46,257 bases of DNA, taken from contig JARFPM010000013.1 in the NCBI GenBank assembly GCA_030444405.1, positions 1-46,257 of the forward strand, given 5' to 3'. Of this stretch, positions 18,209-32,923 are shown in pieces (the stretch's first letter is position 1; each line of letters begins with the position of its first letter). Both the position numbers and the translations under genes were made by a program. Source of the stretch: Nitrospira sp. Its GTDB lineage: Bacteria; Nitrospirota; Nitrospiria; Nitrospirales; Nitrospiraceae. The notes below the pieces were generated by a model, which had not been told where the DNA came from, ran no database searches, and saw nothing but the letters and a program-made list of their open reading frames with translations.

Positions 18209-19297
18209 TTATTGATCTGGCCTTTGCACGTGCGCGAAGCAGGTATCGGTACCAACATCTGGCGGTTTCAACGAGGTTCTCTTGGTGTCCACCACGCCTT
18301 GCAGCGTCAACGCAACCGCATCAAGACTTTCGAGCAATGAGGTGAAGGAATCAGAAACGGCAGTCGGCACAACAGACATTGCCGGTTTGGAGGGTGCTTC
18401 CGAAAATCTGATCCGCCCGACCACGGGCGGATTGAGAATCTCCGCGATCGATACTAACGGCATGCGGCTCAAATCAATTTCACAAGAACCAGTTCCCTCA
18501 TGTCCCTGCTGATCATCCATCCGTACAACTGGGCGAAGAGGATAGCTGCTATTCACTTTTGCCACCGTTCCTACTTCTCCGGCCGTCAATCGCACTGTCG
18601 TTCCAAGTGGGTAAACCGAAAATTGCTCAACGAGTGCCTTCAGAATCTCTCGAGGAAAAGTCCTTCGTTCAGCGACCAGAAGTTCCTTGACCGCTTCGTG
18701 CGGGAGCAGGCGACGGCGATAGGGGCGCTCGCTCACCAATGCATCGAATACATCGACCACTCCCAAGATCTGGGCCATTTCATTGATCTCTCTTCCCGCG
18801 AGTCGATTGGGGTACCCCTGCCCGTTGAAGCGTTCGTGAGCCTGACGCGTCAATTGCGCCAACCAGCGATACGCCGGTCCGCACTTCTCGACAACCTGAT
18901 ACCCCAGCTCAGGATGCCGTTCGATGAGTCCCCGCTCTTCCTGGGTCAAACGGCCGGCCTTGGTGATCAAAGATCTCGGCACGGCAAATAGTCCGATATC
19001 ATGGACAAATCCGGCCAGTGCCAACCGCTGTAGTTCTTCCCCATAGTACCCAAGACCGATCCCTACCTTCGTTCCGAGTATGGCCACATTGATCAGATTG
19101 GTGATGAGTGGTGACCCAGACGGTCCAGCCAGTGCTTGCACCACGAGCTCATCGTTGTGCTGCAGCGATGAAACGACATCCCCCGCCAGAGCCTCAAGTG
19201 GTTCTAGTGAGATGGAACGATGCCCCTGAACGGCGATCGCTATCTCGCCCAACGCGTGTTCTGCATTCTGATACCAGTTCGTCAAGACATCACCCAT
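18209..19297 (-). CDS. HD-GYP-like domain protein, probably degenerate
   Basis: Resembles HD-GYP cyclic-di-GMP phosphodiesterases. 362 residues: an N-terminal helical part, the HD-GYP domain at about 90-215 with HDIG (99-102), ERHPELG, NGQGYP (158-163) and DVFDALVSERPYRR, and a C-terminal region with no clear match. Key residues differ from the consensus: HDIGK is HDIGL, HHExxDGxGYP reads AHERFNGQGYP, and IADVFDAL is VVDVFDAL. Catalysis is therefore doubtful and it may bind rather than hydrolyse the nucleotide. The ATG overlaps the ExeA-like gene by 16 bp, making it the last gene of the chemosensory operon. Confidence 0.75.
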   Translation of the reverse strand: MGDVLTNWYQNAEHALGEIAIAVQGHRSISLEPLEALAGDVVSSLQHNDELVVQALAGPSGSPLITNLINVAILGTKVGIGLGYYGEELQRLALAGFVHDIGLFAVPRSLITKAGRLTQEERGLIERHPELGYQVVEKCGPAYRWLAQLTRQAHERFNGQGYPNRLAGREINEMAQILGVVDVFDALVSERPYRRRLLPHEAVKELLVAERRTFPREILKALVEQFSVYPLGTTVRLTAGEVGTVAKVNSSYPLRPVVRMDDQQGHEGTGSCEIDLSRMPLVSIAEILNPPVVGRIRFSEAPSKPAMSVVPTAVSDSFTSLLESLDAVALTLQGVVDTKRTSLKPPDVGTDTCFAHVQRPDQ

Positions 19298-20160
19298 GTG
19301 CCGCTATTGTCTCGTCGATGCAGCATTTCAGTCGCAACTTTTTCCACCAATGAGCGTCTGATCCGACGCACTCCCAGAACGCGCCCGAAGTATAGGCACA
19401 AGTCGCAAAGCGAGTTGATTAATCGGCATACGCCGCCAGTGCGATGATAAATGGAGGAAAGCGCACTCGGCGAGAATATGGACAACTCACCTCCGGCAGC
19501 AGCGAGACGAGCGAGGATGTAGGCTTTCGTCTCGGCACGATCCAAATATTCGATGTGATGTTGAATGGCCACTCGCTGAGCGAGCTGAGGAATGTGCGCG
19601 ATACGCTCCCGTAGTTCCGGCTGTCCTAAGAGCACGAGCGTGATGAGAAACCGGTCATTTAACTGGAAATTGCTGAGGAGGCGCAGTTCTTCAAAAAGGC
19701 GGTCGTGTTCGATGGCCTGGGCTTCATCCACTACCACAACCGTGTCGACTTCTCGGTGGTAGTTGGCCAGCAGTTGATCGTTCAGGCGACGCAACTGCTC
19801 CACTCGTGTCCCCTGGGGATCCAATCCAAGTTGGAACAAGATCTCGCCGAGAAATTCATTCCCTGGGATGGTCGGATTCGATATGAGTCCGATCTCATAC
19901 CGAGATCGAGGAAGCTTGAGAATCACAGCACGACTAAGGAGCGTCTTCCCACTTCCGATCTCGCCGGTCAGCATCACGATTCCTTTACGTGCATGAATCC
20001 CGTACAGGATTCGTTCTATTGCCGCTTCATGTTTGGCCGATGGGACATAAAACTTCGGATCCGGCACATTTTCAAATGGGCGAAGACGCAGCCCCCAATG
20101 AGGTTCATAGGCCGAGTCCTGAGTCAAATTATGACCTTGTACCGCATCAACAAGTGGCAC
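19282..20160 (-). CDS. ExeA/GspA-type AAA+ ATPase
   Basis: AAA+ ATPase of the ExeA family, used elsewhere to assemble type II secretion or type IV pilus secretins. 292 residues, with YEPHWGLRLRPFENVPDPKF (the family start), Walker A GEIGSGKT (66-73), Walker B VVVVDEAQ (141-148) and a C-terminal winged-helix-like end. It lacks the C-terminal peptidoglycan-binding domain of full ExeA, so it should be cytoplasmic. The start is GTG at 20160, chosen for AAAGGAC upstream. Its position between the HPt-like and HD-GYP-like genes suggests it is an effector or assembly factor of the chemosensory system. Confidence 0.82.
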   Translation of the reverse strand: MPLVDAVQGHNLTQDSAYEPHWGLRLRPFENVPDPKFYVPSAKHEAAIERILYGIHARKGIVMLTGEIGSGKTLLSRAVILKLPRSRYEIGLISNPTIPGNEFLGEILFQLGLDPQGTRVEQLRRLNDQLLANYHREVDTVVVVDEAQAIEHDRLFEELRLLSNFQLNDRFLITLVLLGQPELRERIAHIPQLAQRVAIQHHIEYLDRAETKAYILARLAAAGGELSIFSPSALSSIYHRTGGVCRLINSLCDLCLYFGRVLGVRRIRRSLVEKVATEMLHRRDNSGTWVMS

Positions 20161-20220
20161 GAGTACGTCCTTTTTGTTTCAACATGCCGGCAAGAGTGCA
20201 GCATCGGGGATGGAGCTCAT

Positions 20221-21159
20221 TCAATGAAACAATACACCTTGTATGGCCATGCGCTCCGTCCGTCCGCTTTCCGCCCATTCCTCAATCCCCTTCACATTCT
20301 GGCCCAGCCGTGATTGGATCGCGTCATAGTTCTTGGCATCCACCACCACACGGCGTTGCATCACGATCGTGAGGAAGCTATGCAACCCCATAAAAAACAC
20401 CATCGCATGGGAGGCATTGACCTGCTGAGCGGCGGACCACAGCTGCGCGACACGTTCAACAGCATTCTGCAAGTCGGAGGACGGTGGGTTGGGGACGACA
20501 CGACCATTCTTGAGGATCTGAAGGATAGCTGTCAGATTTGGAAGTTCTTGTCGAACGACTTGGAGAAAGCCTTGATCTCCTTCGGCTGACCGGTCGAGAA
20601 ACTCCTGGATGGAAGCTACGTTGTATTGTTCCACCCCGCGATCGATCAATCCCTCCGTCTGGGCTATCATTGTCTGAACCAAATTTCGATGGAATGCGTT
20701 GGAGGCCGTGCGGTGATCGTGGAGTCCACGGAGTAACACCAAAAACTCTTTCGTCGCGATCATCGTCGGAGGATCTTCGGCGGAAGCTGGGACATGTTCC
20801 GCATCAAAGGTCACACCCGTCGCTCTGGTCAGAGCTCCATGGACATGCCCCAGTTGCTTGCAGAGTGCGATGAAGTCATCGGCGGAGATTCGCGCGGAAG
20901 GGTCTTGAACGGCTTCAACAAATGGAAGAGCTGAGAAACTAGCCCGCTCGACATCACTCAAGTTAAGCGTAGCCGCAGACCCACCAAGGTTCGCAATCCC
21001 AACCTTGATTGTCTGAGCCAAGGCACGATGGCGGTCGAAAGGGGGAGATTGCTGTAGCTCATCGAGTGCGACGTGAATTTGCTGAAGCCATTCCTGTGCC
21101 TCTTGAACGAAAAGTTCAACTAGATCTTTCTGGAACGCATCTTCAGTTTCAACGGACAT
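20221..21159 (-). CDS. HPt-like protein lacking the phosphoacceptor histidine
   Basis: 312 residues. The N-terminus (VELFVQEAQEWLQQIHVALD) matches the start of CheA-type HPt domains, and the segment IANLGGSAATLNL aligns with the HPt signature AHTLKGSAxTLG; the phospho-histidine position is Ala56 and the following Lys is Gly59. Residues about 130-300 are a helical region without a recognised family. Phosphotransfer through this domain is not expected, so an adaptor role is more likely. It is cotranscribed between a receiver/coiled-coil protein and the ExeA-like ATPase, with gaps of 54 and 60 bp. Overall function is unknown. Confidence 0.65.
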   Translation of the reverse strand: MSVETEDAFQKDLVELFVQEAQEWLQQIHVALDELQQSPPFDRHRALAQTIKVGIANLGGSAATLNLSDVERASFSALPFVEAVQDPSARISADDFIALCKQLGHVHGALTRATGVTFDAEHVPASAEDPPTMIATKEFLVLLRGLHDHRTASNAFHRNLVQTMIAQTEGLIDRGVEQYNVASIQEFLDRSAEGDQGFLQVVRQELPNLTAILQILKNGRVVPNPPSSDLQNAVERVAQLWSAAQQVNASHAMVFFMGLHSFLTIVMQRRVVVDAKNYDAIQSRLGQNVKGIEEWAESGRTERMAIQGVLFH

Positions 21160-21213
21160 CGGCTTCGGCCCTTCAACAAGAACACAACCATCTAGGCGCT
21201 CCGGCTGGCTGGC

Positions 21214-22410
21214 TCAGGATTGCCCCCTCCCATTTCCAAGTTGGGAGGCCAACCCGGCAATCTCACCTAACTTGCGTGCCATTTCCTCAAGCCGTTTTGT
21301 GGCGTTCTCCGCGGCTTCTTCGGCTTCCACCACTCGTCGAGCGAGCATTCCGTTGCGGTCTCGTTCTGCGGTCAGGAGCCCTTCCATTTCCTGAACTCTC
21401 GTCGCCACTCTCTCCAATTCTTGAAGTTGTCCCATTGTCTCTGCCCCCTTCCGTCGTTCCGTCAAAAGTTCGACTTCGAGGTCCTGGATTTTCTGGTAAA
21501 GCTCGGCTCCCTGCTGTTCCGCACTCGCGAGTCTTGCTTCCACGTCTCTTGCCCTGATCGACACCTGCTCCAAATCCGACAGTTGCTCCACGAGTTCCTC
21601 TGCCGCCGCCCGTTCGGCAGTAAGAGCGGACTCGAGCTCCACAACCCGACCGGAGATCTTCTGCGAGTGCTCGACTTCTTGCTTGAGTGCATCGACCGCG
21701 CTCTGTTCGGCCTTGAGTGCAGTTTCAAGCTCCGAGATTCTCACTGCTTGATGCTCGGAGTGGGTGAGCTTCGCTTCAAGATCGCTAATCCGCTGCCGCT
21801 CGGCCACCAACTGCGTCTCGGCACCCTTCGCATGTGTGAGCTGTTCAGCCGCTTCTGCCAAGCGTTTGCCCAAGTCTTCTGATCGAGCGCGTTCTGCCCG
21901 TAATTGATCTTCAACTTCTTTGAGCTTCACTGAATCCTGCCCTGCGCGCGCCTGTTGTTGGTCCGCCATCGGAGAAGCCTTCTCGACAGTTGCGGGCGTT
22001 GGGCTGGTGGCGGGTCTGGGGGCAGCTGCCGGCGACGGTTCCTGCCGTTTTGCTATCAGCTCGAGGACTCGATCCTTGAGGGACGTTCCTTGAAAAGGCT
22101 TCTTCAATACCCCATTCGCGCGGCAGGACTCGGCTTGTTTAGTCACTTCATCGTTCACGATTCCGGAGATGAGCAGGACGGGCGTCGCTGCGAGTGTGGG
22201 GTTTCCACGCACAAATGCACACACTTCGTACCCGCTCTTATCCGGCATGATGACGTCGGACACAACAACATCGGGCCGTTCCTTTGCTAGATAAGCCAAT
22301 GCTTCTTCTCCGTTTGCCGCGAGAGTGACGCCGAGGCCTGCCTCGGTCAACAGTCGCTCAGCCACCTTGCGAACTGCGATGCTGTCGTCGGCTAGTAAGA
22401 TCTTCGGCAT
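21214..22410 (-). CDS. Receiver-domain protein with a long coiled-coil tail
   Basis: 398 residues from the ATG at 22410 (AAAGGTG upstream). Residues 1-125 are a CheY-like receiver with the acidic pair D8/D9, phosphoacceptor D52 (VVVSDVIMPDKSG), S82 and K104 (VLKKPF). A proline/alanine linker (about 126-160) leads to a continuous coiled coil to about residue 385, with heptad-like repeats of QLRAERARSEDL and ELETALKAEQS type. There is no DNA-binding or enzymatic output domain. Phosphorylation by the hybrid CheA upstream could control a rod-like scaffold, for example for polar or pilus localisation; that is inference. Confidence 0.85.
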   Translation of the reverse strand: MPKILLADDSIAVRKVAERLLTEAGLGVTLAANGEEALAYLAKERPDVVVSDVIMPDKSGYEVCAFVRGNPTLAATPVLLISGIVNDEVTKQAESCRANGVLKKPFQGTSLKDRVLELIAKRQEPSPAAAPRPATSPTPATVEKASPMADQQQARAGQDSVKLKEVEDQLRAERARSEDLGKRLAEAAEQLTHAKGAETQLVAERQRISDLEAKLTHSEHQAVRISELETALKAEQSAVDALKQEVEHSQKISGRVVELESALTAERAAAEELVEQLSDLEQVSIRARDVEARLASAEQQGAELYQKIQDLEVELLTERRKGAETMGQLQELERVATRVQEMEGLLTAERDRNGMLARRVVEAEEAAENATKRLEEMARKLGEIAGLASQLGNGRGQS

Positions 22411-22445
22411 GCCTACACCTTTCGTCCATCCAGGCACAGGGGGAA

Positions 22446-22892
22446 TCACACAGTCGATCCAAGTCGTGATACCGAGAGAATCGGGACTTCATCGAGGCCG
22501 TTGGTATAACTGCCTTCGGCCGGCAAATCCTTGCCTTGGTATGCCTGAAGCGCGGCAGGATCAAAGGTATGAAGAACCGGGATCTCCTCATCAATGCACA
22601 TCGCCATCTCTCCGAGGGGATGCTTCACCTTCAGACATAGAGGACTGCTCCCTTGCACAGTAAGATGAAGGGATGCGGCCAGATCGAATACCGGTAGCAC
22701 GGTCTGCCCCTGACGAACGACCGCCGTGACAAAAGGGGTTCGACCAGCGACCGGGATAGATTGGTGCCACTGAGAAATACCCGACACATCCAATGCTTTT
22801 ACTGCCAATCGTCTCCCCCCCACTGAAAACACCAACAGCTGCCATGATTGACGTGCCGTTTCCCGCTGATGCCTATGACCAGCCCTCAGCAT
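22446..22892 (-). CDS. CheW-like coupling protein
   Basis: Single CheW domain (148 residues): QLLVFSVGGRRLAVKALDVS at the start and RTPFVTAVVRQGQTVLPVFDLA in the middle match the two-lobed CheW fold. CheW proteins join MCP receptors to CheA. It overlaps the upstream CheW-like gene by 7 bp. It is one of three CheW proteins in the operon and is the most divergent, possibly serving a different receptor or a structural array position. Confidence 0.75.
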   Translation of the reverse strand: MLRAGHRHQRETARQSWQLLVFSVGGRRLAVKALDVSGISQWHQSIPVAGRTPFVTAVVRQGQTVLPVFDLAASLHLTVQGSSPLCLKVKHPLGEMAMCIDEEIPVLHTFDPAALQAYQGKDLPAEGSYTNGLDEVPILSVSRLGSTV

Positions 22893-23455
22893 ACCCGGCT
22901 ATCGTTCACTGAAATCTTCGGGGCTGCCACCAGTCGAGGAGTGTTTTCTTGCCCCCCACTGCCGTCTAAGCCCGATACCTGCTCATCAAGCACCCAGTTT
23001 GTATTGAGCACCAACGCAATGCTGTTTCCGAATAGGATCATGCCTCGGTACCAGTGTCGTTCCAGTCCACGGAACTGCATAGGAAGCGGCAGAACTTGAG
23101 ACTGTTGGAGTTCCAGGAGTCCGTGCACCGTGGTGACTCGAACGTTTCCGCGCGCTTCTCGTTCAGAAAGCAGCACGACACGTGTGTCCGTCCCGCCCCG
23201 ATCGTTGGATACACTCAATCGATTGGCCAGATCGATGGCCCTATACACCATGCCGTGAATCGTCGGGTTTTCAACGTATCCAGCCTCTTTGAGAGTCAAC
23301 ACTCCCTGTATAGACTCGGCATCTAACGCCAGGTACCGTCCGCCTAATGTCACGATGAGAAATCGTGATGGAGCAGCTGGCGACGAAGTTACCGTCATCG
23401 CTTCCCGGACGCCCAAGCCAAGACCTTCTTGCCCATTCTCTGTAACAAGTCGCAT
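22886..23455 (-). CDS. CheW-like coupling protein
   Basis: CheW-domain protein of about 189 residues. The domain begins at RFLIVTLGGRYLALDAESIQ and continues through IHGMVYRAIDLANRLSV and RVVLLSEREARG. An ATG at 23398 would also give a complete domain, so the start is uncertain. It follows the hybrid CheA with a gap of about 31 bp and is translationally coupled to the next CheW. Its role is to link receptors and kinase or to tune the array. Confidence 0.75.
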   Translation of the reverse strand: MRLVTENGQEGLGLGVREAMTVTSSPAAPSRFLIVTLGGRYLALDAESIQGVLTLKEAGYVENPTIHGMVYRAIDLANRLSVSNDRGGTDTRVVLLSEREARGNVRVTTVHGLLELQQSQVLPLPMQFRGLERHWYRGMILFGNSIALVLNTNWVLDEQVSGLDGSGGQENTPRLVAAPKISVNDSRVC

Positions 23456-23486
23456 TTCGTCAACCAATACGAATATTTCCGCAAGG

Positions 23487-26400
23487 TTACATGCGGAGCG
23501 CTGGGGCGCGCCCAATCCACCGCTCGATCTCCTGTAGTAACGTTCGTTCTTCCACTGGCTTAGCTATATAGGAATTGGCACCGATGTTGAGTGCTATCTG
23601 CCGGTGTTTATCCCCTGCCCTCGTCGTCATGACAACGACAGGCGTCTGTTTCGTTTCGGGTCGGCTTCGGAGCGCCTGAATGACTTCAAATCCATTCAGC
23701 TTCGGCATCTCGAGATCAGTGAGGATCATCCGATAACTGTTGGCTGATGCTTTTCGGAGTCCATCTTCCCCGTCAACCGCTGTATCAACCTGGTATCCAG
23801 CCGACTCCAGCATCCGTCCGACAAACTTGCGAATACTTAACGAATCGTCCACCAGCAGTAAGCGTGACCCCATCAGCTCATTCGCCACTGCCTCCTTTGG
23901 CACCGATTCCTCCGGCAAGAGCACGGCCTTAGAGAAAACAACACGTGCAGCTGCTTCTTTTGCCTCTCGTGAGATTAAGCGGCCTGGGTCAATAACAAGA
24001 ATGACCCGTCCTTCTGGGTCGATCGTTGCGCCTCCGAAAAACGAATGTTCTAATGGCTTTAACGGTCCGAGGGACTTGATCACGATTTCCTGCCGCCCCA
24101 ACAACTCATCGACCGCCAATCCCATTGGACCTCCAGCGGCCCGAACGATCACAACCGGCATCGTCCAGTCAATGCTGCCTGATTCGCGACGGAGCATGTG
24201 ATACAACGATTGAACTTCGATGTTTTGCTCACCGACCTGTAAGAACGTACGACGATCTTCTTCTCGCAAAGAGGAAGCTGTCGGTATCGTCACTTCCTGA
24301 ATATTCGGCAAAGGAATCGCATAGCGTTCGGTACCAGAACGCACCAATAACGCAGTCGCGATGAGCAGCGTGAGCGGAAGGTTTAAGGTAAACTTGGTAC
24401 CAACACCCTGTTCTGACTCCACGTCGATATGCCCATTCATGCCCTCGATGACTCGTTTGACAACGTCAAGCCCCACACCTCGGCCTGCCTGGTCCCCTAC
24501 CTTGTCGGCGGTTGAAAAACCGGGTAGGAAAATCAGCTGAAGGAGGTCCGCATCAGACATCGTTTGTAGTTGCTGTGATTGTGCTAGTCCGATCTTGCTG
24601 GCTTTTGTCCGTATTTTATCCAAATCCAACCCTGCCCCATCGTCTTCCACCTCGATGATGACCGAGTTTCCACGATGCGCTGCGTGCAGATAAACAGTCC
24701 CAATGGCTGGCTTGCCCTTCGCGACTCGGTGGGCTGCCGGCTCAATACCGTGGTAGACGGCATTCCGGACCAAATGGACCAATGGATCCACCAATCGTTC
24801 CACCACTCCTGTATCGACCTCCGTACGCTCACCTGATGTGACCAAGGACACTTCTTTATTTGAGGCTCGGGCCATTTCTCTGACCGCTCGATGAAACCTC
24901 GTGAATGGTGTCCCGATCGGGACCATACGAGCCCTTGCGATTTCGTCTCTCATGAATAACGTCAATTGTTGCAGCTGGCTCATATCGTCATGAGCTCTAC
25001 GGATCGACCCATCTAGTTGGGACATGGATTCACTAATATCAGCCGTGACTTCACCAAGGCGGCGAGCCAAGACATTGAAATCGTCGTACTTATCCAGCTC
25101 GAGGCTACCAAAATCGCCGAATATCGGAAGTCCTTGCGGAGCAGGTACAGTTGCATTGCTCGGTGCTTCCTGATGCGTAAAGGTGTGCTTATCGGCGAAC
25201 GATTGAACGGAATCGACCAAACGACTCTTGAATGCCAAGACCTGCTGCGACAATTGTTCCAATACTCGCAGTCGTTGTTCCAATCGGCCACGTCCAATGA
25301 CTAACTCTCCGACCAGATTCATCAATCGTTCTAACCGAGCATAGCTGACTCGAATAGCCTCACGTTCCTCGGCCGATCTCCCCTCGGAGGACTTCTCTTG
25401 CCCTTGGGACTCCTCCCTTTCACCCTGTGGTTTTGGCAGAGACCTGGAGACATGATCCGGTTGATGCGCCGCGGTGGTTTCAACGGCGCCACCCTGTTCT
25501 AGTCGTTTCAGCTCTGACCGCGCCGCATTGTAGCGCTGTCTCGTTGCCTCCACCTTGCTCAGATCTCTTCGTATCAGCACTCGAACAACATCGATTGATC
25601 GCAGTATCCAATCGGTGTGTCCGGGCAACACCTGAAGGCGACCGTCCCGTACCGCCCCCATAAAGTCTTCGACGTGATGAACAAGATCTCCGATAGACTG
25701 AAAACCGATGGTATAGGCAGAACCTTTCAAGGTGTGCGCAGTTCGAAAGAGCTGGTTGATCAGTTCCTTGTTTTGAGGGTCCTTATCCAGCCGGAGAAGA
25801 TTGGCCTCCAACGATTCCAGATACTCTTCCGCTTCAGGGACAAAGTACGACATGTCCTCCGGGTCTAACTCAGGGACCAAGTATTCATCGGACAAGCCTT
25901 CTGGGGGAATCTGGATCTCAACAAGCGTCTCCTTCTGAACAGCGATTGAGGTACCGACATCTACGCTGGGCGTAGCTGCCTGCGATGGATCCGGTGCTTC
26001 TTCGCACATCCGAGTAAATTGATGAACAAGAAGCGGCACATCACGTTGAAGTTCCTCTACGCTGGCCGGATCATGTTGGAGAATAAGGCGGATCATTGCA
26101 GCAGCTTTCGCTTGCATCTCAAGAAAAGCATGGTTCAGCTGAAGGCGCTTTTCCCGAACCGCAATCATGGAATCTTCCATAGGCCGGGCAATATCCCCAA
26201 TGACTTGGAAGCCTACGGTGTAAGCTGAGCCCTTCAGAGTATGCGTCGCGCGAAAGAGCCGATAGGTCGCGTCTTCATTGTCTTGCTTCTCTCTCAGACT
26301 GCGAATTAACTCATCGATGGTACAGAGATACTCCTCGGCTTCAGGAATAAAATAGGACAAGATTTCTGGATCGAGTACGGGACGGACATACGCCTCGCTG

Positions 26401-26813
26401 ACAACTGGTTTTGCAGTCGATGGGTCTCTCAAGCTCTCCAAAGACGCGAGACAACGGGTCACGAGGCCTTCATCCTCGCTGCCGCCCTGGCCAATTGATC
26501 GAATCAAGGATCCAAGGCCTTGTAGGACCTCTCGCATCACCCCTACAATGCGAGACCAGTCAGGAATGAGCGAGTTATCCGTGCCCTCGAAGATCGTTTC
26601 GAGTCGTTCCGCTAATCGTGCAACCCCGCCGTATCCATAGAGGGCAGCTGCGCCACGAATGCGGTGAGCGATGATGTACTGATCGTGGAGCGCTTCAGGT
26701 GTGGGGATCGGGTCGCCGTCGGAATGCAGAGCTTCTGATAATACTCTGATGCCGTCCGAGGCTTCTAAGACAAAAACACTGATCAAATCAGGCTGATTGG
26801 ATTGCAAACCCAT
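23487..26813 (-). CDS. Hybrid CheA histidine kinase with three HPt domains and a C-terminal receiver (ChpA/PilL-like)
   Basis: Central kinase of the chemosensory operon, 1108 residues. Three HPt domains with phosphoacceptor histidines at H50 (AHRIRGAAALYG), H191 (THTLKGSAYTVG) and H360 (AHTLKGSAYTIG); a dimerisation region (about 480-640); an ATPase domain with N-box HLVRNAVYHGIE, G1 EDDGAGLD and G2 GRGVGLDVVK; a CheW-like regulatory domain (about 800-930); and a receiver with phosphoacceptor D1033 (LTDLEMPKLNGF). This layout matches ChpA of the Pseudomonas twitching-motility system, which has more HPt domains. The first HPt is less conserved than the other two. It lies between the MCP (48-bp gap) and two CheW genes. 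Confidence 0.93.
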   Translation of the reverse strand: MGLQSNQPDLISVFVLEASDGIRVLSEALHSDGDPIPTPEALHDQYIIAHRIRGAAALYGYGGVARLAERLETIFEGTDNSLIPDWSRIVGVMREVLQGLGSLIRSIGQGGSEDEGLVTRCLASLESLRDPSTAKPVVSEAYVRPVLDPEILSYFIPEAEEYLCTIDELIRSLREKQDNEDATYRLFRATHTLKGSAYTVGFQVIGDIARPMEDSMIAVREKRLQLNHAFLEMQAKAAAMIRLILQHDPASVEELQRDVPLLVHQFTRMCEEAPDPSQAATPSVDVGTSIAVQKETLVEIQIPPEGLSDEYLVPELDPEDMSYFVPEAEEYLESLEANLLRLDKDPQNKELINQLFRTAHTLKGSAYTIGFQSIGDLVHHVEDFMGAVRDGRLQVLPGHTDWILRSIDVVRVLIRRDLSKVEATRQRYNAARSELKRLEQGGAVETTAAHQPDHVSRSLPKPQGEREESQGQEKSSEGRSAEEREAIRVSYARLERLMNLVGELVIGRGRLEQRLRVLEQLSQQVLAFKSRLVDSVQSFADKHTFTHQEAPSNATVPAPQGLPIFGDFGSLELDKYDDFNVLARRLGEVTADISESMSQLDGSIRRAHDDMSQLQQLTLFMRDEIARARMVPIGTPFTRFHRAVREMARASNKEVSLVTSGERTEVDTGVVERLVDPLVHLVRNAVYHGIEPAAHRVAKGKPAIGTVYLHAAHRGNSVIIEVEDDGAGLDLDKIRTKASKIGLAQSQQLQTMSDADLLQLIFLPGFSTADKVGDQAGRGVGLDVVKRVIEGMNGHIDVESEQGVGTKFTLNLPLTLLIATALLVRSGTERYAIPLPNIQEVTIPTASSLREEDRRTFLQVGEQNIEVQSLYHMLRRESGSIDWTMPVVIVRAAGGPMGLAVDELLGRQEIVIKSLGPLKPLEHSFFGGATIDPEGRVILVIDPGRLISREAKEAAARVVFSKAVLLPEESVPKEAVANELMGSRLLLVDDSLSIRKFVGRMLESAGYQVDTAVDGEDGLRKASANSYRMILTDLEMPKLNGFEVIQALRSRPETKQTPVVVMTTRAGDKHRQIALNIGANSYIAKPVEERTLLQEIERWIGRAPALRM

Positions 26814-26861
26814 CCGCTTGCCTTTAGGCCGGGAAAGACTTGCCCGGTAGAGCTTGAATCA

Positions 26862-28751
26862 TCAGGCCAGCTTGAATTGCGACACAGACGCCGTCAAACC
26901 TTCAGCCAGTTTCACCATGTCTTCGACCGTCGCACGTGCTGAATCGGTGGCTTTCTGAGTTGCCATTGCACCTCCCGTAAAGTCTTTGATCGAGCGTCCG
27001 ACGTGATCGGTTGAAACCGTTTGGTCAGCGGCCGCCGCTGCAATGCTTTGGGCAAGCTCAGCAGACCGTTGAGCAATCGTTGAAATCTCCTTAAATACGT
27101 CACCCGTACGCAACGCCGAAGCCGATCCCGCTTCGACTGCCTGCGTCTCATGTTCCATCGCAACCACGGCATGTTGCGTTTCGCCCTGGATGACTTTCAC
27201 CAGATCCGCAATCTCGCGTGTCGCTTGGGTCGAACTCTCCGCGAGCTTCCGCACCTGGTCGGCGACAACGGCGAAGCGAGCCCCGGCCTCGCCTGCGCCG
27301 GCAGCTTCGATAGCGGCGTTTAAAGCCAACAAGTTCGTCTGATTCGCAATGTCTCGAATGGTCGACACGATTTGCGAAATTTCCAGTGAGCGATCACCGA
27401 GCGCTTTGACCTGCTTGGACATCCGTTGAACGGCTGATCGGATACGCTGCATATCCTGAACGGTTTCCTGCACCGCCACTCGGCCGTCTTCAGTCGCTTT
27501 CAACACTTGCCGAGCTGATTCGGATGAAGCTTCGGCTGTATCCGACACTTGCCGCATGGAGGCGGCCAGCTGTTCGACCGCGCCGAGCGTCCTCATCGAC
27601 TCATCCGCTTGATGCTTAGCTGTTCCAGCCATCTGTCCAGCGTTATCGCGCAGTGCACCGGCAGATCTATTGACTCGTTCGGCCGATTCTCGGACCTGTT
27701 TCATTAATTGCGCGAACCGCTGGATCATGAGGTTGAAGCCATCGGCCAAGTTACCGAACATGTCGGCCGTCACTTCGCCTCGCTTGGTCAGGTCTCCCTT
27801 CCCAACATCGGATACGAGCACCAGAAATTGCACCAGGCGTTTCTGCATGGTATCCCGTTCTTCTTCGGTGGAGACCAGGCGCGTAATGCGGTCGAGCATG
27901 GAGTTGAAAGCCTTGGCCATGTGCCCGACCTCGTCGTCGCTGTCCAGCCGAGCTCGTGCCTGCAGATTCCCAGCAGCGGCCTGTTGGGCAACGTCGGCGA
28001 CATGCACGATATTGCGGGCGATGTTGCGGGCGAGAAAATAGCTGATCGCACCGGCCAACATCAGGGCCAGCACCGCGCCCATCAATACGATATTCGTCCG
28101 ATACGACGCTTCAGCTTGTCCGTTGTCGTTCTGCTCCTTGGCAACCTCACGGATGGTCGTCATAAGCTCGCGCACTCGCAACGTCGCCGAACCATATTTG
28201 CTCGCCGCTTCGACAGACAATGCGAATTGCCCACGATCCCGCATCGCCTGTTTCTGGTCATCTGACAACGAGGATCCGAAGCTGTCCGCGAACGCTCCTA
28301 CCGCACCCTCCGTGGCTGTAAAGTAATCGCGCAACGCTTTGCGAAGGTCTTCCAGGTCTTTACTCTCATTTCTTCCGGTCGAGGATTCATGTAATTGGGA
28401 TGCCTGGTAGGCATCGAGTGGCGCAAGAGTTTGTCGCTTTAATTCTGCGAGCGGAACCAATGCTTCTTCAAAGTCACTCTTCCGGGTCTGTCGTCCAAGA
28501 TTCAGCAGTGCGCTATGATAGAGGCCCAGGTTGGTACTACTGATCCCGACGTTTGAAAGGGCCAGAGTCGACCCGTTGTAAATCGACTGCAACTCGCCTT
28601 TCAGCTTATGGAGCCCGATCAGACCTATCAAACCAACGGTGATCATGATGGCGCTCACGGCGGAAAACCCAATAATCAGCTTGGGCAGAGTCTTGAGGTT
28701 TTGAAACCATGATTGCATTGGCCTTGCCACCGGCTTGCTATACCTCGCCAT
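26862..28751 (-). CDS. Methyl-accepting chemotaxis protein, PilJ-like
   Basis: Transmembrane receptor, 629 residues from the ATG at 28751, preceded by GGAGGAGGAA (an ATG at 28769 overlaps that ribosome binding site and is rejected). TM1 is at about 24-47, a helical periplasmic sensor at 48-219, TM2 at 220-241, HAMP at 242-295, and a second HAMP-like segment at about 305-355 ([20 protein letters not shown], as in PilJ). The signalling domain has the tip [17 protein letters not shown] followed by [16 protein letters not shown]. The usual EAARAGE and RGFAVVA are altered at two positions, and no CheR-tethering pentapeptide ends the protein. It lies between a CheW gene and the kinase. Confidence 0.92.
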
Positions 28752-28811
28752 GACGTTCCTCCTCCTCACCGCTCACGACCACGCCCTGTTCTATACAAGC
28801 CACTGTTTCTT

Positions 28812-29333
28812 TCACCGATTCGTTTGAGGACTCATATCAGTGCTCGATTCCTCAACAGACGCTAATAACTTCGAAAGTTCCAACATGGCGCTTACGCGAT
28901 TCTCGACTCGTACGAGTCCTGACAAGAAGGGGTGTTTGTCGGTTGCACTCGGCACCGAGGAGTTCAGCAGGTCGTCAGGAGAGATGGTCCGGATCTCCGG
29001 GACATCGTCGATGAGTAGACCAACCTGATGAGGACCATGCCGTACGACAATCGCATATCTCGAAACAGTTGAGGGAGACACTCCCAAAGACAGCCTCAAG
29101 TCCGCCAGCGGGACAATAGTTCCACGGAGATTGGCCACGCCCACCAGTGATGCCGGCATTCCAGGCACCGGTGTGATCGACTCAAGCTCGAAGACTTCAC
29201 GGACTTGGCGAAGATCGACGGCGAACAACTCCCCTCCCAGAGTGAACAGGCAAACCCTCCACAAACCTGTGGATTGTGTTTGCTCGGGTTCTGAGTCGGA
29301 GCTGAGCTGAGGTAACTCACATGGTAGTTCCAT
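28812..29333 (-). CDS. CheW-family coupling protein (PilI-like)
   Basis: 173 residues with a canonical CheW domain: FTLGGELFAVDLRQVREVFE, PVPGMPASLVGVANLRGTIV and PLADLRLSLG. This is the most conserved of the three CheW proteins in the operon. It is second in order, directly before the MCP, as PilI precedes PilJ in Pil-Chp systems. It should couple the MCP to the hybrid CheA. Confidence 0.9.
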   Translation of the reverse strand: MELPCELPQLSSDSEPEQTQSTGLWRVCLFTLGGELFAVDLRQVREVFELESITPVPGMPASLVGVANLRGTIVPLADLRLSLGVSPSTVSRYAIVVRHGPHQVGLLIDDVPEIRTISPDDLLNSSVPSATDKHPFLSGLVRVENRVSAMLELSKLLASVEESSTDMSPQTNR

Positions 29334-29359
29334 CGTCTTTCAACCCATGCATCATTGAG

Positions 29360-29725
29360 TCACTCAGCTAACGCAAGCTTGATTGCCTGTAACAGCTCTT
29401 CAGATTTGAACGGCTTGACCACATGTCCGTTCGCTCCCTGTTGTTGTCCCCAAAACTTGTCGCTTTCCAGGCCTTTTGATGTGCAGAGTACGATCGGAAT
29501 ACTCTTAAATCGGGCATCGTTCTTCAAATCCCGACAAGCCTGAAACCCATTGCGGCCAGGCATCACCACATCCATGACAATCAGATCGGGCTGCTCCGTA
29601 ACGATCTTGTCTTCGAGATTGTCGGTGCTTGAGAATGACACGACCGTATGGTGAGCGGCTTTCAGGTACAACTCAATGAGTTGTATCTCGGCCTGTGAAT
29701 CATCGATCACCACAATCTTGCTCAT
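29360..29725 (-). CDS. Stand-alone receiver protein (PilG/PilH-like)
   Basis: Single CheY-like receiver of 121 residues: D8/D9 acidic pair, phosphoacceptor D52 (VMDVVMPGRNG), T82 and K104 (HVVKPF). Length and position at the head of the operon match PilG or PilH, which control pilus extension and retraction motors in Pseudomonas. A good AGGGAGAGGAAAG lies before the ATG. The gene begins 28 bp after the end of the decayed haem-protein gene, so it probably depended on that gene's promoter. Confidence 0.9.
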   Translation of the reverse strand: MSKIVVIDDSQAEIQLIELYLKAAHHTVVSFSSTDNLEDKIVTEQPDLIVMDVVMPGRNGFQACRDLKNDARFKSIPIVLCTSKGLESDKFWGQQQGANGHVVKPFKSEELLQAIKLALAE

Positions 29726-29752
29726 GAGACTCTTTCCTCTCCCTAGGACTGA

Positions 29753-30497
29753 TCATTGAAACGCCCAACGCAACGGCATGACTACACTGATGGCGCCAGC
29801 CAGCTCTCCCTCGTTCACACTTCTTTCTTCGTACCGGTCATATCCTGCTCTCCCTTGGGACCACCATGGCACATCAGTCAGCTGGCTCCCGCATATTCAG
29901 GATCCATGACGCGCATGACTGGCTTGCCGCTAAGCGTCGTCACCTTTGCATATTGTTGCCCCTTCGGATGGCGTGGATCGGCAAACATACGAAGGACTTC
30001 GGCTTCAAAGTCATCTGGCTAATTACCAGGGAAGCGATAGTCTGTACCCGTCAGCTTGACCCTAATACCGGTCTTCGCAAAAACTTTTGCCCGACCTTCC
30101 GAGCGAACGCCGACGGAACAAACCCTTTGAAGGCGATGCCCTGCTTGTTGATAATAGATTGTGCCTCGAGCACGACCTCGAGTTCGGACTCCAGCATGGC
30201 CAAGAGAATCTCGCTCTGCGGAATGCCGCTCGAATGGGACAAGTCGACTCGAGTCTTCGCTTTGAACTTGTCAATGACCTGGCTTACTACGAACTTATCG
30301 GTGAAGCCTTTGTCAGCTTTAGATGCGTCATTGACGAGCGGCGGGTGTTCGGACACCACCGCTTGTCCGGCCCGCACCAACTCGATGAGCAGTTCCGCGA
30401 TCTCTCCCTCATCTCCTGCCTCTGCATGGGCAAAGCCCTCCCCCATCACCACACAGAGCCCGACTCCCGCAATCAATGCCGACACCCGCGCCCTCAT
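29753..30497 (-). pseudogene. Decayed Tll0287-like (DUF3365) c-type haem protein gene
   Basis: Reading the minus strand gives a signal peptide (SALIAGVGLCVVMGEGFAHA), then DUF3365-like sequence (VNDASKADKGFTDKFVV, LESELEVVLEAQSIINKQGI). The frame is lost at the A-run 30079-30083 (a 1-nt change). In the shifted frame come KTGIRVKLTGTDYRFPGN, a TAG at 30019-30021, then DDFEAEVLRMFADPRHPKGQ and MRVMDPEYAGAS. A TGA at 29878-29880 replaces the first Cys of the haem motif (xLMCHGG). Another frameshift near 29811-29825 precedes GELAGAISVVMPLRWAFQ and the stop. Two nonsense codons and two frameshifts make this a clear pseudogene. The ancestral protein was probably a periplasmic haem sensor or redox protein. 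Confidence 0.85.
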
Positions 30498-30539
30498 CTC
30501 CCACCCTCGTGACATAGTCGATTCGTGCTGTTCCCATGC

Positions 30540-30567
30540 AGTGTATCGACTTGTTGACGGTTGGCAA
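30540..30567 (-). promoter_or_regulatory. Candidate promoter upstream of the haem-protein pseudogene and chemosensory operon
   Basis: On the minus strand, TTGCCA (30567-30562), 16 bp, then TACACT (30545-30540), matching 5 and 4 of 6 consensus bases. It lies about 45 bp before the pseudogene ATG at 30497. It may still drive the receiver gene, which has no clear promoter of its own in the 27-bp gap. Confidence 0.4.
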
Positions 30568-30668
30568 GAAAACGGTGATTATCGGCATTTTCTTTGGTTG
30601 TAGGGGGTGTCGATGTAATGCGGGAGTTAGTATTGAGAAGGATCTTGACGAATGTCGGACAGGCTACT

Positions 30669-32198
30669 TCATTTGAGGAGCCCAGACAGATCGACATTAC
30701 TGGATAGATGATCAGCCCACCGATCGAGTTCGCTCTGCAATCGAGAGGTAACTGACTTCGAGGCATGAATATCAAGGGGTGGAAGTCCTTTCCTCATACG
30801 AGCGCGATTGAGCCAGGCACGACGAAAGCCAGGCTCATCAAACACTCCATGGATGTACGTACCCCACACAAGGCCGTCTTTTCGAATGGCTCCATCGAAC
30901 TCTTCTTCGCTCCTAGCGATCGACAGGCGAATTTCCTCACCCGGGACGGAACGGCGGCGAACCCTAAAACAGGGAAATTCGTTCACTCGTAGCGTGACGC
31001 CTATACGGATCTGATACCCACGGACCAAGCTCTGGCCAGCCGGGAAGAAGTCCGTTGGGTGGGCTTCCACCTGTGTAGTGCATTTCGTTTGTTTGAGCTC
31101 GGTCTCCGTACTCAAGTAGCCCAGTCCGCCGCTCATCCCACCCTGTTCGACCCCGCAAGGGTCCGAGATCGTTCGGCCAAGCATTTGATAGCCACCACAG
31201 ATACCGATTAGCTCTCGGCGACCATCTATATGATCGTCGAACACAGGTAGATATCCCCGTCCCTTCAAGTAGGATAGATCGGCCAGAGTGTTCTTACTTC
31301 CAGGAACTATCACAATGTCCGCGCCGACAAGGGCCGCCGGTTCAGCCACATATTTCAATGCCACATCCTGTTCAGCCGCCAAGACGTTGAAATCGGTAAA
31401 ATTGCTCATATGCGGCAGTAAAACAACGGCAATGTTGATTTGATCGGATGAAAAAGTCGTCTGTCGGTACCTGGCCAGATCCAGACTATCTTCTTGGTCC
31501 AGCATCAGATCACGAAGAAAGGGCACCACGCCCAACACAGGAATCCCACTCCGAGATTCCAGGAACTGCACCCCATCGGCGAACAACTTCGCATTGCCTC
31601 TAAACCTATTGATGATGACGCCGCATACCCTGGTACGTTCGTCCGGCTCCAGCAAATCCAATGTTCCAAGCACTTGGGCAAAAACCCCACCTCGATCGAT
31701 ATCAGCCACCAAGAAAACCTTGGCATCAGCTAACTTAACGATGGGCCAATTGACCAAATCTCTCTGCCGGAGATTCATCTCAGCTGCACTGCCGGCCCCT
31801 TCAATAACCAGCACATCGTACCGACTCGCCAAACGCGCATAGCTTTCTTCTACGACAGCCCTAAGCCGTTGTCGGCCATCGAAATATGTGGAGGCCTCCT
31901 GTTTCGCGAACATCTTGCCAAGAACTATAACTTGAGAGCAGTTGTCCGACTCGGGCTTGAGCAAGATTGGGTTCATATCAACATGCGGTGGAATCCCACA
32001 GGCTTCCGCCTGCAGGGCTTGGGCCCGCCCGATTTCACGGCCGTCAGGGGTCACGAATGAGTTCAATGACATGTTTTGAGCTTTGAATGGAGCCACACGC
32101 ACTCCGGCACGATGAAGCAGCCGGCAGATCCCGGCTGTGATCAAACTTTTGCCTACGTCCGATCCGGTTCCAAGAACAGCAAGTGCCCGTGTCGTCAT
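30669..32198 (-). CDS. cobQ: Cobyric acid synthase (CobQ/CbiP)
   Basis: Glutamine-dependent amidation of adenosylcobyrinate diamide side chains b, d, e and g to give adenosylcobyric acid. 509 residues from the ATG at 32198, where the family start TTRALAVLGTGSDVGKS begins. That ATG overlaps the cbiZ stop (ATGA). The N-terminal synthetase domain has the P-loop-like GTGSDVGKS. The C-terminal glutaminase domain has Cys in GICGGYQMLG and His in TYIHGVFDEPG. It is the last gene of the cobalamin operon; no corrin-ring genes are in the window. Confidence 0.93.
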   Translation of the reverse strand: MTTRALAVLGTGSDVGKSLITAGICRLLHRAGVRVAPFKAQNMSLNSFVTPDGREIGRAQALQAEACGIPPHVDMNPILLKPESDNCSQVIVLGKMFAKQEASTYFDGRQRLRAVVEESYARLASRYDVLVIEGAGSAAEMNLRQRDLVNWPIVKLADAKVFLVADIDRGGVFAQVLGTLDLLEPDERTRVCGVIINRFRGNAKLFADGVQFLESRSGIPVLGVVPFLRDLMLDQEDSLDLARYRQTTFSSDQINIAVVLLPHMSNFTDFNVLAAEQDVALKYVAEPAALVGADIVIVPGSKNTLADLSYLKGRGYLPVFDDHIDGRRELIGICGGYQMLGRTISDPCGVEQGGMSGGLGYLSTETELKQTKCTTQVEAHPTDFFPAGQSLVRGYQIRIGVTLRVNEFPCFRVRRRSVPGEEIRLSIARSEEEFDGAIRKDGLVWGTYIHGVFDEPGFRRAWLNRARMRKGLPPLDIHASKSVTSRLQSELDRWADHLSSNVDLSGLLK

Positions 32199-32923
32199 TG
32201 ATGTGACTCCCGCCAAGCCTTTGCCTTCGCTAAACCCCGAGTGACACATTCGGCAACGACTCGTCCGACCAGCGCCCCCATAATGGTGTGCGTCCCCCCA
32301 TAGAGGTGCGATGGACCCTGTCCGCGCAGCCGGCAAGCAATTACGACTGCGTCCGTGCCGGTTCCAGTGGCGAGGATCCCGCTATGGCAACTAGGCACTG
32401 CATGGTCGCGCAATACTCCAGTCTTGGCTTCGGTGGCAACTTGCACGACACCGACCATCGCGGCGTGAGAGAGACTGCCGTTCGTGATGAGAATGAGATT
32501 GATCGTACCGGGCTTGCCCCGTCTGTCGCGATGAGAACGTTGCGGTGGCCATTCTCCGGCTTGGACCGCGTTCGTTACGCCGACCGTCGCAAAACATTCC
32601 ACCCAGAGCCCGTCCGATGCGGCTCGTGCCGTAACCAGCTGTGTCATCGGTACCGCCGTCATGAGTCCAACACAGCGTACGCGGATTCCGAGTCGGGAGG
32701 CCACCTTTCGTAACAAGCAGGAGGGCTCAGTGAAGGTCTTAGACTGATCCTCGGACGCGGAAGGATTTGCCTCAACCTGATGATTGAGTACGCAGGAAAC
32801 CACCGTGAGCCCTCCCCCTTGTGGCGCGGATGAGAGCACACGTTTCCGACCTTCAAGATTGATAACCAGTGTCTGCCCCATCACTCGGTAGCGGGTGCGG
32901 ACTCGTGTGGAAGTATTCTTCAT
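32195..32923 (-). CDS. cbiZ: Adenosylcobinamide amidohydrolase CbiZ
   Basis: Cleaves the aminopropanol arm of adenosylcobinamide (and in some species pseudocobalamin) to adenosylcobyric acid, so that a new nucleotide loop can be built. 242 residues. Family segments seen are LMTAVPMTQLV, FATVGVTNAVQAGE, GTINLILITNGSLSHAAMVG, VQVATEAKTGVLRDH and ATGTGTDAVV. It is translationally coupled on both sides: the ATG overlaps the cobD stop and its stop overlaps cobQ. Its presence shows that the operon does corrinoid salvage and remodelling. Confidence 0.9.
   Translation of the reverse strand: MKNTSTRVRTRYRVMGQTLVINLEGRKRVLSSAPQGGGLTVVSCVLNHQVEANPSASEDQSKTFTEPSCLLRKVASRLGIRVRCVGLMTAVPMTQLVTARAASDGLWVECFATVGVTNAVQAGEWPPQRSHRDRRGKPGTINLILITNGSLSHAAMVGVVQVATEAKTGVLRDHAVPSCHSGILATGTGTDAVVIACRLRGQGPSHLYGGTHTIMGALVGRVVAECVTRGLAKAKAWRESHQ

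Follow-up and report, generated by a model that had tools for sequence, protein, structure and literature searches.

A decayed gene for a Cache-type haem c protein at the head of a Nitrospira chemosensory operon

A chemosensory operon of Nitrospira sp. is headed by a pseudogene (29753..30497, minus strand) of a stand-alone c-type haem protein of the Tll0287-like/DUF3365 (sCache_heme) kind, identified by a PF11845 match, a three-frame profile match and alignment. It lies in the window, the whole stretch of 46,257 nucleotides that was analysed. With good confidence, we read it as the dead copy of an ancestral operon-head gene for a Cache-type haem c protein, presumably a lost accessory input, in an operon that was probably imported by recombination. 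We use the label G000 for the genome containing the window, and other G and L labels for compared genomes and fetched loci.

Lesions and identity of the operon-head gene

Four genes follow the pseudogene on the minus strand: a single-domain response regulator, or receiver (29360..29725, PF00072); CheW (28812..29333, PF01584); a methyl-accepting chemoreceptor with 4HB_MCP_1, HAMP and MCPsignal domains (26862..28769; PF12729, PF00672 and PF00015); and a CheA with multi-Hpt, kinase, CheW and receiver domains by Pfam (23487..26813). The shared strand and adjacency place the haem pseudogene in one operon with them. On its other side, also on the minus strand, is a cobQ-type cobyric acid synthase gene (30669..32336; PF07685 and PF01656). 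The receiver, CheW, receptor, CheA and cobQ-type genes, all on the same contig, are all open frames. Below CheA, the minus strand of the window at 18209-23515 carries two CheW-like genes, a receiver with a long tail, an AAA protein, an HD_5 protein and, at 20221-21159, a 312-residue frame with no Pfam match.

The pseudogene has its first codon at 30497, and alignment to G009, G063, G074, G001 and G019 places five lesions along it, all on the minus strand. Frameshift 1 is a one-base deletion in a T run of the coding strand (30081..30085, also evident from the reading frames) and is followed by an in-frame TAG stop (30019..30021), an in-frame TGA in place of the first Cys codon of the CxxCH motif (29878..29880), a second one-base deletion (frameshift 2, 29815..29820) and the loss of the stop codon, TGG standing at the stop position of the five aligned relatives (29765..29767). 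The alignment thus bears out two frameshifts and two stops, one of them at the first CxxCH Cys, as the earlier note had described, and adds the stop loss; that note's end coordinate of 29753 arises because the frame runs past the lost stop to a TGA at 29755-29753. None of these lesions is present in any of the five aligned relatives; G001 is also broken, by other lesions. A profile built from 26 intact orthologs fits the pseudogene in three successive frames, in order, at profile positions 1-142 (202.8 bits), 129-227 (171.6 bits) and 228-244 (13.1 bits), which means that the pseudogene contains two frame changes.

The window copy has neither a CxxCH motif nor an open reading frame. The axial haem ligand that this motif supplies is its His. 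Its cysteines bind the haem covalently by thioether bonds (PMC12889525). CxxCH is found in 26 of 26 intact orthologs, a count that follows from our definition of an intact gene as a frame of at least 200 codons with CxxCH. In a family search of its own genome, the window remnant gives a PF11845 match at 29842-30090 that spans one TGA and one TAG and scores 39 bits against a cut-off of 24.1; the remnant with its stops read through therefore scores above the cut-off, as does the intact ortholog L005 (85.6 bits). The same search returned three further PF11845 matches without stops in G000. These paralogs (C60:22257-22628, C110:6721-7176 and C152:29414-29740, or L132, L133 and L134) each show a CxxCH by eye; by our own reading, a large sensor-kinase-like open frame borders the C110 copy, and ATP-synthase-like frames lie close to the C152 copy. 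NCBIfam gave no match and PDB sequence searches nothing relevant, the search with profile A1 finding no match up to an E value of 1. An AlphaFold2 model of L005 made from two sequences had a mean pLDDT of 44.2, too poor for a fold search aimed at a Cache fold that holds a haem insertion between two strands.

Could the gene still yield a working product? Recoding of the TGA as selenocysteine, combined with programmed frameshifts, could in principle restore a functional protein, and the TGA does fall exactly at a Cys codon, but the TAG, the two frameshifts and the stop loss would have to be accommodated as well, and none of them is present in the five aligned relatives; we regard this as extremely improbable. 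A shortened product would be the N-terminal domain without haem, encoded by the open frame at 30515-30051 (154 aa). Here 138 native codons remain open and this part is not visibly more decayed than the rest, but it has neither CxxCH nor the C-terminal part, the 154-aa frame has no Pfam match, the full frame is present in 26 of the other 66 loci, and the long open N-terminal stretch that G001 also has is without an ATG start. Continued use of such a product seems very unlikely, although less so than recoding.

It is also unlikely, if a shade less so, that the lesions are a sequencing or assembly artefact and that the gene is intact in the organism. The genome is a draft of 170 contigs (99.63% complete, 1.91% contamination), frameshift 1 sits in a T run and the signature of relaxed selection in G000 is weak. 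Against an artefact, the 745 bases hold five lesions, of which three are codon substitutions, the neighbours on the contig are open, and 40 other loci, those of the one-contig genomes G001 and G064 among them, likewise lack an intact gene. As to relaxation, residues invariant in 21-22 intact orthologs are changed at 7 of 84 sites in G000 (two of them being the stops) and at 14 of 84 in G001; in the same test, run over 85-93 sites with each intact genome left out in turn, the intact G009, G063 and G074 differ at 2, 1 and 1 sites, the intact G026 at 4, and the fast intact lines G062 and G041 at 6 (of 91) and 8 (of 93). Genome-unique changes at codon positions 1 and 2 number 12 in G000, 10 in the intact G009 and 32 in G001. 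Pairwise dN of the haem gene is 0.116-0.129 from G000 to G009, G063 and G074, compared with 0.140 from G009 to G063, 0.156 from G009 to G074 and 0.051 for the close pair G063-G074. Strong relaxation of the G000 gene was not found. These counts point to a decay that would be recent, or else in part an assembly error; the same result allows both.

Linkage, repeated loss and the predicted operon promoter

Comparison with orthologous loci, a check suggested in the earlier note, found intact versions upstream of the receiver gene in relatives, so that note's inactivated DUF3365 c-type haem gene at the head of a chemosensory operon stands. We fetched 67 loci: those of the 65 of 79 genus genomes that had a DNA match (the window's included, the other 14 being left out) and those of G080 and G082, which belong to other genera. 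Most show the order cobQ, haem gene or gap, receiver, CheW, receptor, CheA; the exceptions are loci cut by a contig end or with no good match to one gene (for example, cobQ is unmatched in G026, G024, G071, G012 and G082, and the receiver match is wrong in G041). Of the 67 loci, 26 have an intact haem gene: 24 of the 65 genus loci, together with G080 and G082. In the other 41, that of the window among them, it is broken or missing. Several of these 41 retain remnants recognisable by the profile, clear in G001, G072, G035, G059, and G005 with its relatives, and weak in some loci of the type B defined below. The ortholog profile detected no haem-gene remnant in 14 of the 41, all of them type B. 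G001 holds a second full-length pseudogene with lesions of its own, none in common with G000. In G007, G005, G032, G076, G037, G010 and G043 (L102, L103, L109, L111, L120, L126 and L127) the haem gene is reduced to two short pieces, at about 44-77 and 191-238 of the profile, of similar layout in all seven loci, as if they came from one shared deletion.

Among the matches listed, which sample 196 genomes of the order, 54 of 56 genomes from 14 other genera of the family have a haem gene upstream of the receptor ortholog, at a distance of 626-1513 bases (median 1080). The two exceptions, G154 and G204, have the haem gene and receptor on different contigs; in G154 both are at contig starts, and the receptor match of G204 breaks off at residue 61, pointing to a contig break. 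Six genomes of family f2 have a receptor ortholog and, among the matches listed, no haem match on the receptor's contig; G087, G090 and G099 each have one unlisted match. Within the genus, G038, G045, G046 and G050 have a receptor only 48% identical and their sole haem-protein match on another contig. Since the haem gene is near the receptor in so many genomes of other genera and the losses fall within the window's genus, the linkage is old in the taxonomic family, and the gene appears to have been kept by related genera and lost several times in Nitrospira. Losses among type A loci fall on separate branches of the operon tree with intact relatives between them, and the safer count is four losses in type A lineages: G000; G001; G035 with G059; and G072 with seven others. 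A count of five independent losses on the full operon tree was softened for two reasons: without the receptor ectodomain type B does not form a clade, and unordered parsimony, in which a lost gene may be regained, can do with 4 changes.

What has been kept is the sequence in front of the gene. A scan found a sigma-70-type promoter-like site, TTGCCA-16-TACACT, at the operon head (30540..30567, minus strand), within a block (30519..30587, minus strand) that is conserved even in loci without the gene, at about 78-92% identity over the matched part. The site scored 9 of 12, and the region holds 3 promoter-like sites against a mean of 0.9 in shuffles. In the 41 loci without an intact gene, TTGCCA stands at -35 in 40 and TACACT at -10 in 39, and all 41 have a spacing of 16. 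The survey is partly self-selecting, since many gene-less loci were found through a DNA match that was the block itself; against that bias, all 54 listed genus genomes with a receptor at least 68% identical belong to the examined set. In these loci the distance from promoter to receiver start ranges over 100-843 bases. The 26 intact loci have TACACT in 22, a spacing of 16 in 24 and a varied -35 element (TTGCGA in 9, TTGCCA in 8); one of them, G080, has no site of the TTGCCA-TACACT type. A sigma-28 reading of GCCGATAA was dropped, as it is not common to all loci. Retention of the block in loci that have lost the intervening gene is as expected of an operon promoter under selection, and this predicted promoter suggests that the remaining genes are still transcribed. 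With the promoter kept and the haem gene dead, their transcript would begin with a leader of about 0.8 kb, mostly dead gene.

Two operon versions and their probable exchange

The receptors of these loci come in two forms. We call type B those whose ectodomain is closer to that of G064 than to that of G000, and type A the rest; the type A ectodomain of the window covers receptor residues 50-224, with borders set by eye (28098..28622, minus strand). Type B comprises 28 loci, none of which has the haem gene, or 29 with G054, whose fetched piece holds no receptor and whose ectodomain is 95% identical to that of G064. In the 38 type A loci the haem gene is intact in 26 and not in 12. Type B ectodomains are at least 72% identical to that of G064 and at most 56% to that of G000, and the cytoplasmic part of the receptor is 88-93% identical between G000 and eight type B genomes. 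A comparison that took in seven type A, eight type B and five outlying type A genomes limits the divergence between A and B to the first 240 or so residues of the receptor, and no such departure is seen in receiver, CheW or CheA. The branch leading to type B has 0.683 substitutions per site in the ectodomain against 0.016 in the cytoplasmic part, the largest excess of 121 branches. Borrowing of the type B ectodomain from a paralog found no support: among the matches listed from 196 genomes of the order, nothing outside type B exceeds 52% identity to it, and the nearest of these are orthologs.

That type B, the version with the rebuilt ectodomain, is without the haem gene in every locus seen is a hint that the haem protein and the receptor may have been coupled. 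The lack of clear acceleration after loss, the lack of a mirror-tree signal, and G071 are hints that they may not have been tightly so. In type A lineages after loss the ectodomain is not clearly faster, with ratios of 1.12 (0.78-1.57) relative to CheA and 1.40 (0.94-2.20) relative to CheW, and the mirror-tree comparison of haem protein and ectodomain gave no signal (partial r -0.29, 19 genomes). We set aside a speed-up of the ectodomain tied to haem-gene loss, as the stem branch with the excess depends on the same operon tree, and no clear effect emerges when type A is tested by itself. G071 (L085) combines an intact haem gene with a receptor, cut by a contig end, whose ectodomain may be a third form: its identity is only 33% to the ectodomain of G000 and 26% to that of G064. 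A divergent ectodomain therefore does not require loss of the haem gene.

For G000 the operon tree and the species tree disagree. In an rpoB+rpoC codon tree of 59 genomes (six with 26-54% of sites), G000 falls inside a group that is otherwise type B only. In the operon tree, with the ectodomain in or out, it falls with the type A relatives G063, G074, G001, G035, G059, G009 and the G072 group. The operon data reject a tree that places G000 with its species sisters (AU p 4e-48), and rpoBC rejects one that places it with G063, G074, G001, G059 and G035 (AU p 5e-4); the replicates behind both p values were too few for them to be exact. The pseudogene itself groups with the type A relatives G063, G074, G001 and G009, and the neighbouring cobQ-type gene groups in its tree with the species sisters.

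A scan of informative sites along the contig, comparing six type B sisters with four type A genomes, locates the change. Sites favour A by 123 to 36 at 29.75-27.25 kb, favour B at 31.5-30.75 kb (9 to 0) and at 23.5-21.0 kb (60 to 22); neither side prevails at 27.25-23.5 kb or at 32.5-31.5 kb (10 B, 13 A). Below the operon, the bin 22000-21751 favours A by 9 to 2, and below 23.5 kb nucleotide identity is higher to the sisters in every 500-base bin with both measured. The stretch of type A ancestry thus spans approximately 23500..30600, with rough borders, clear at 29.75-27.25 kb and mixed at 27.25-23.5 kb. In the operon bins the four compared type A genomes are about 68-81% identical to G000, the donor lying outside the sample.

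The best reading of this pattern, blurred borders included, is operon replacement by homologous recombination; a chimaeric assembly appears less likely, and a contaminating contig would not switch identity along its length. G000 probably gained a type A operon in this way, within a species group that is otherwise type B, and the haem gene would then have decayed. A rival to this one step of the explanation holds that the operon of G000 is native, that type B spread horizontally and that nothing was imported; it leaves the case for a dead gene unchanged. Type B is indeed not a clade in the operon tree without the ectodomain, the rpoBC tree calls for six or more changes of receptor type and the borders of the stretch are blurred; but rpoBC puts G000 inside a group that is otherwise type B only, and both contig flanks are mostly closer to that group by identity while the operon is not. 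We consider a native operon a possible but rather doubtful alternative, and import into G000 the likelier direction of exchange. The earlier note was right about a loss at the head of the operon and missed the horizontal-looking operon, the species sisters without the gene, the wider linkage and the repeated losses in the genus.

Possible role and comparison with known systems

The product of the intact gene would be a Cache-type domain that stands alone, carries haem c in covalent linkage and is probably exported. Such a periplasmic protein may have responded to NO or to redox state and biased the receptor, and its loss may have changed signalling through the operon. By analogy with tested family members, an NO- or redox-responsive accessory to the receptor is the most likely input, with NO slightly favoured. 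That the gene was lost repeatedly while the other pathway genes stayed points to an accessory rather than a core component, one that would be dispensable in the genus. A bolder proposal makes the haem protein a dedicated, separate co-sensor of the 4HB receptor, kept through the history of the family. There would then be two interchangeable versions of the operon, one partnered with the haem protein and one with an ectodomain rebuilt to work alone, swapped between species by recombination, and G000, from a haem-less lineage, would have taken in the haem version and later dropped its haem gene. The coupling tests with the ectodomain are negative or unclear, so this stays a minority view, conceivable but tentative.

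For G000 alone the result is a modest annotation, a dead gene rather than a sensor. The haem family and its fusions to chemoreceptors are already known (PMC12889525; PMC3460858); what is worth keeping is the conserved linkage, the repeated loss and the exchanged versions. A literature search of titles and the beginnings of abstracts found no earlier account of this operon's haem gene, its loss or the two versions. PMC12889525 proposes redox roles, not signalling, for stand-alone haem Cache proteins. A stand-alone member that is tied to one chemoreceptor across 14 genera, has no axial Cys and is absent from the version with the rebuilt ectodomain is a concrete test case for such proteins feeding chemoreceptors, and related species whose genes are intact, broken or absent lend themselves to comparison, in bacteria that matter for nitrification.

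Deshpande et al. 2026 (PMC12889525) named the PF11845 family (DUF3365/Tll0287-like) sCache_heme, with CxxCH conserved in at least 99% of members and nearly half of members standing alone. The Nitrospira protein is like this family in the PF11845 score of L005 (85.6 bits), in CxxCH in all 26 intact orthologs, in standing alone and, by eye, in a signal-like N-terminal stretch; it is unlike it in that the window copy is dead. The tested members differ in their haem ligands. In PMC12889525, a stand-alone protein of P. putida has an axial Cys and redox-like properties, and a HAMP-linked protein of P. azotoformans has no axial Cys and releases NO slowly. In 25 of the 26 intact Nitrospira-operon orthologs there is no Cys outside CxxCH after residue 30 (G024 has one more), so an axial Cys of the Tll0287 kind is not possible in those 25. 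They therefore differ from Tll0287 and the P. putida protein, and share with the NO-binding P. azotoformans protein only the missing axial Cys, since they stand alone. Geobacter GSU0582 and GSU0935 (PMC3460858, PMC12889525) belong to this same family of haem c sensors and are likewise tied to chemoreceptors, but as described there their haem domain is inside the chemoreceptor, whereas in Nitrospira the domain has its own gene within the operon of a 4HB receptor. Compared with Che operons that encode a receiver, CheW, a methyl-accepting receptor and a multi-Hpt CheA, the Nitrospira operon has all the domains, and is set apart by a haem gene at its head that is retained by related genera and has been repeatedly lost in Nitrospira.
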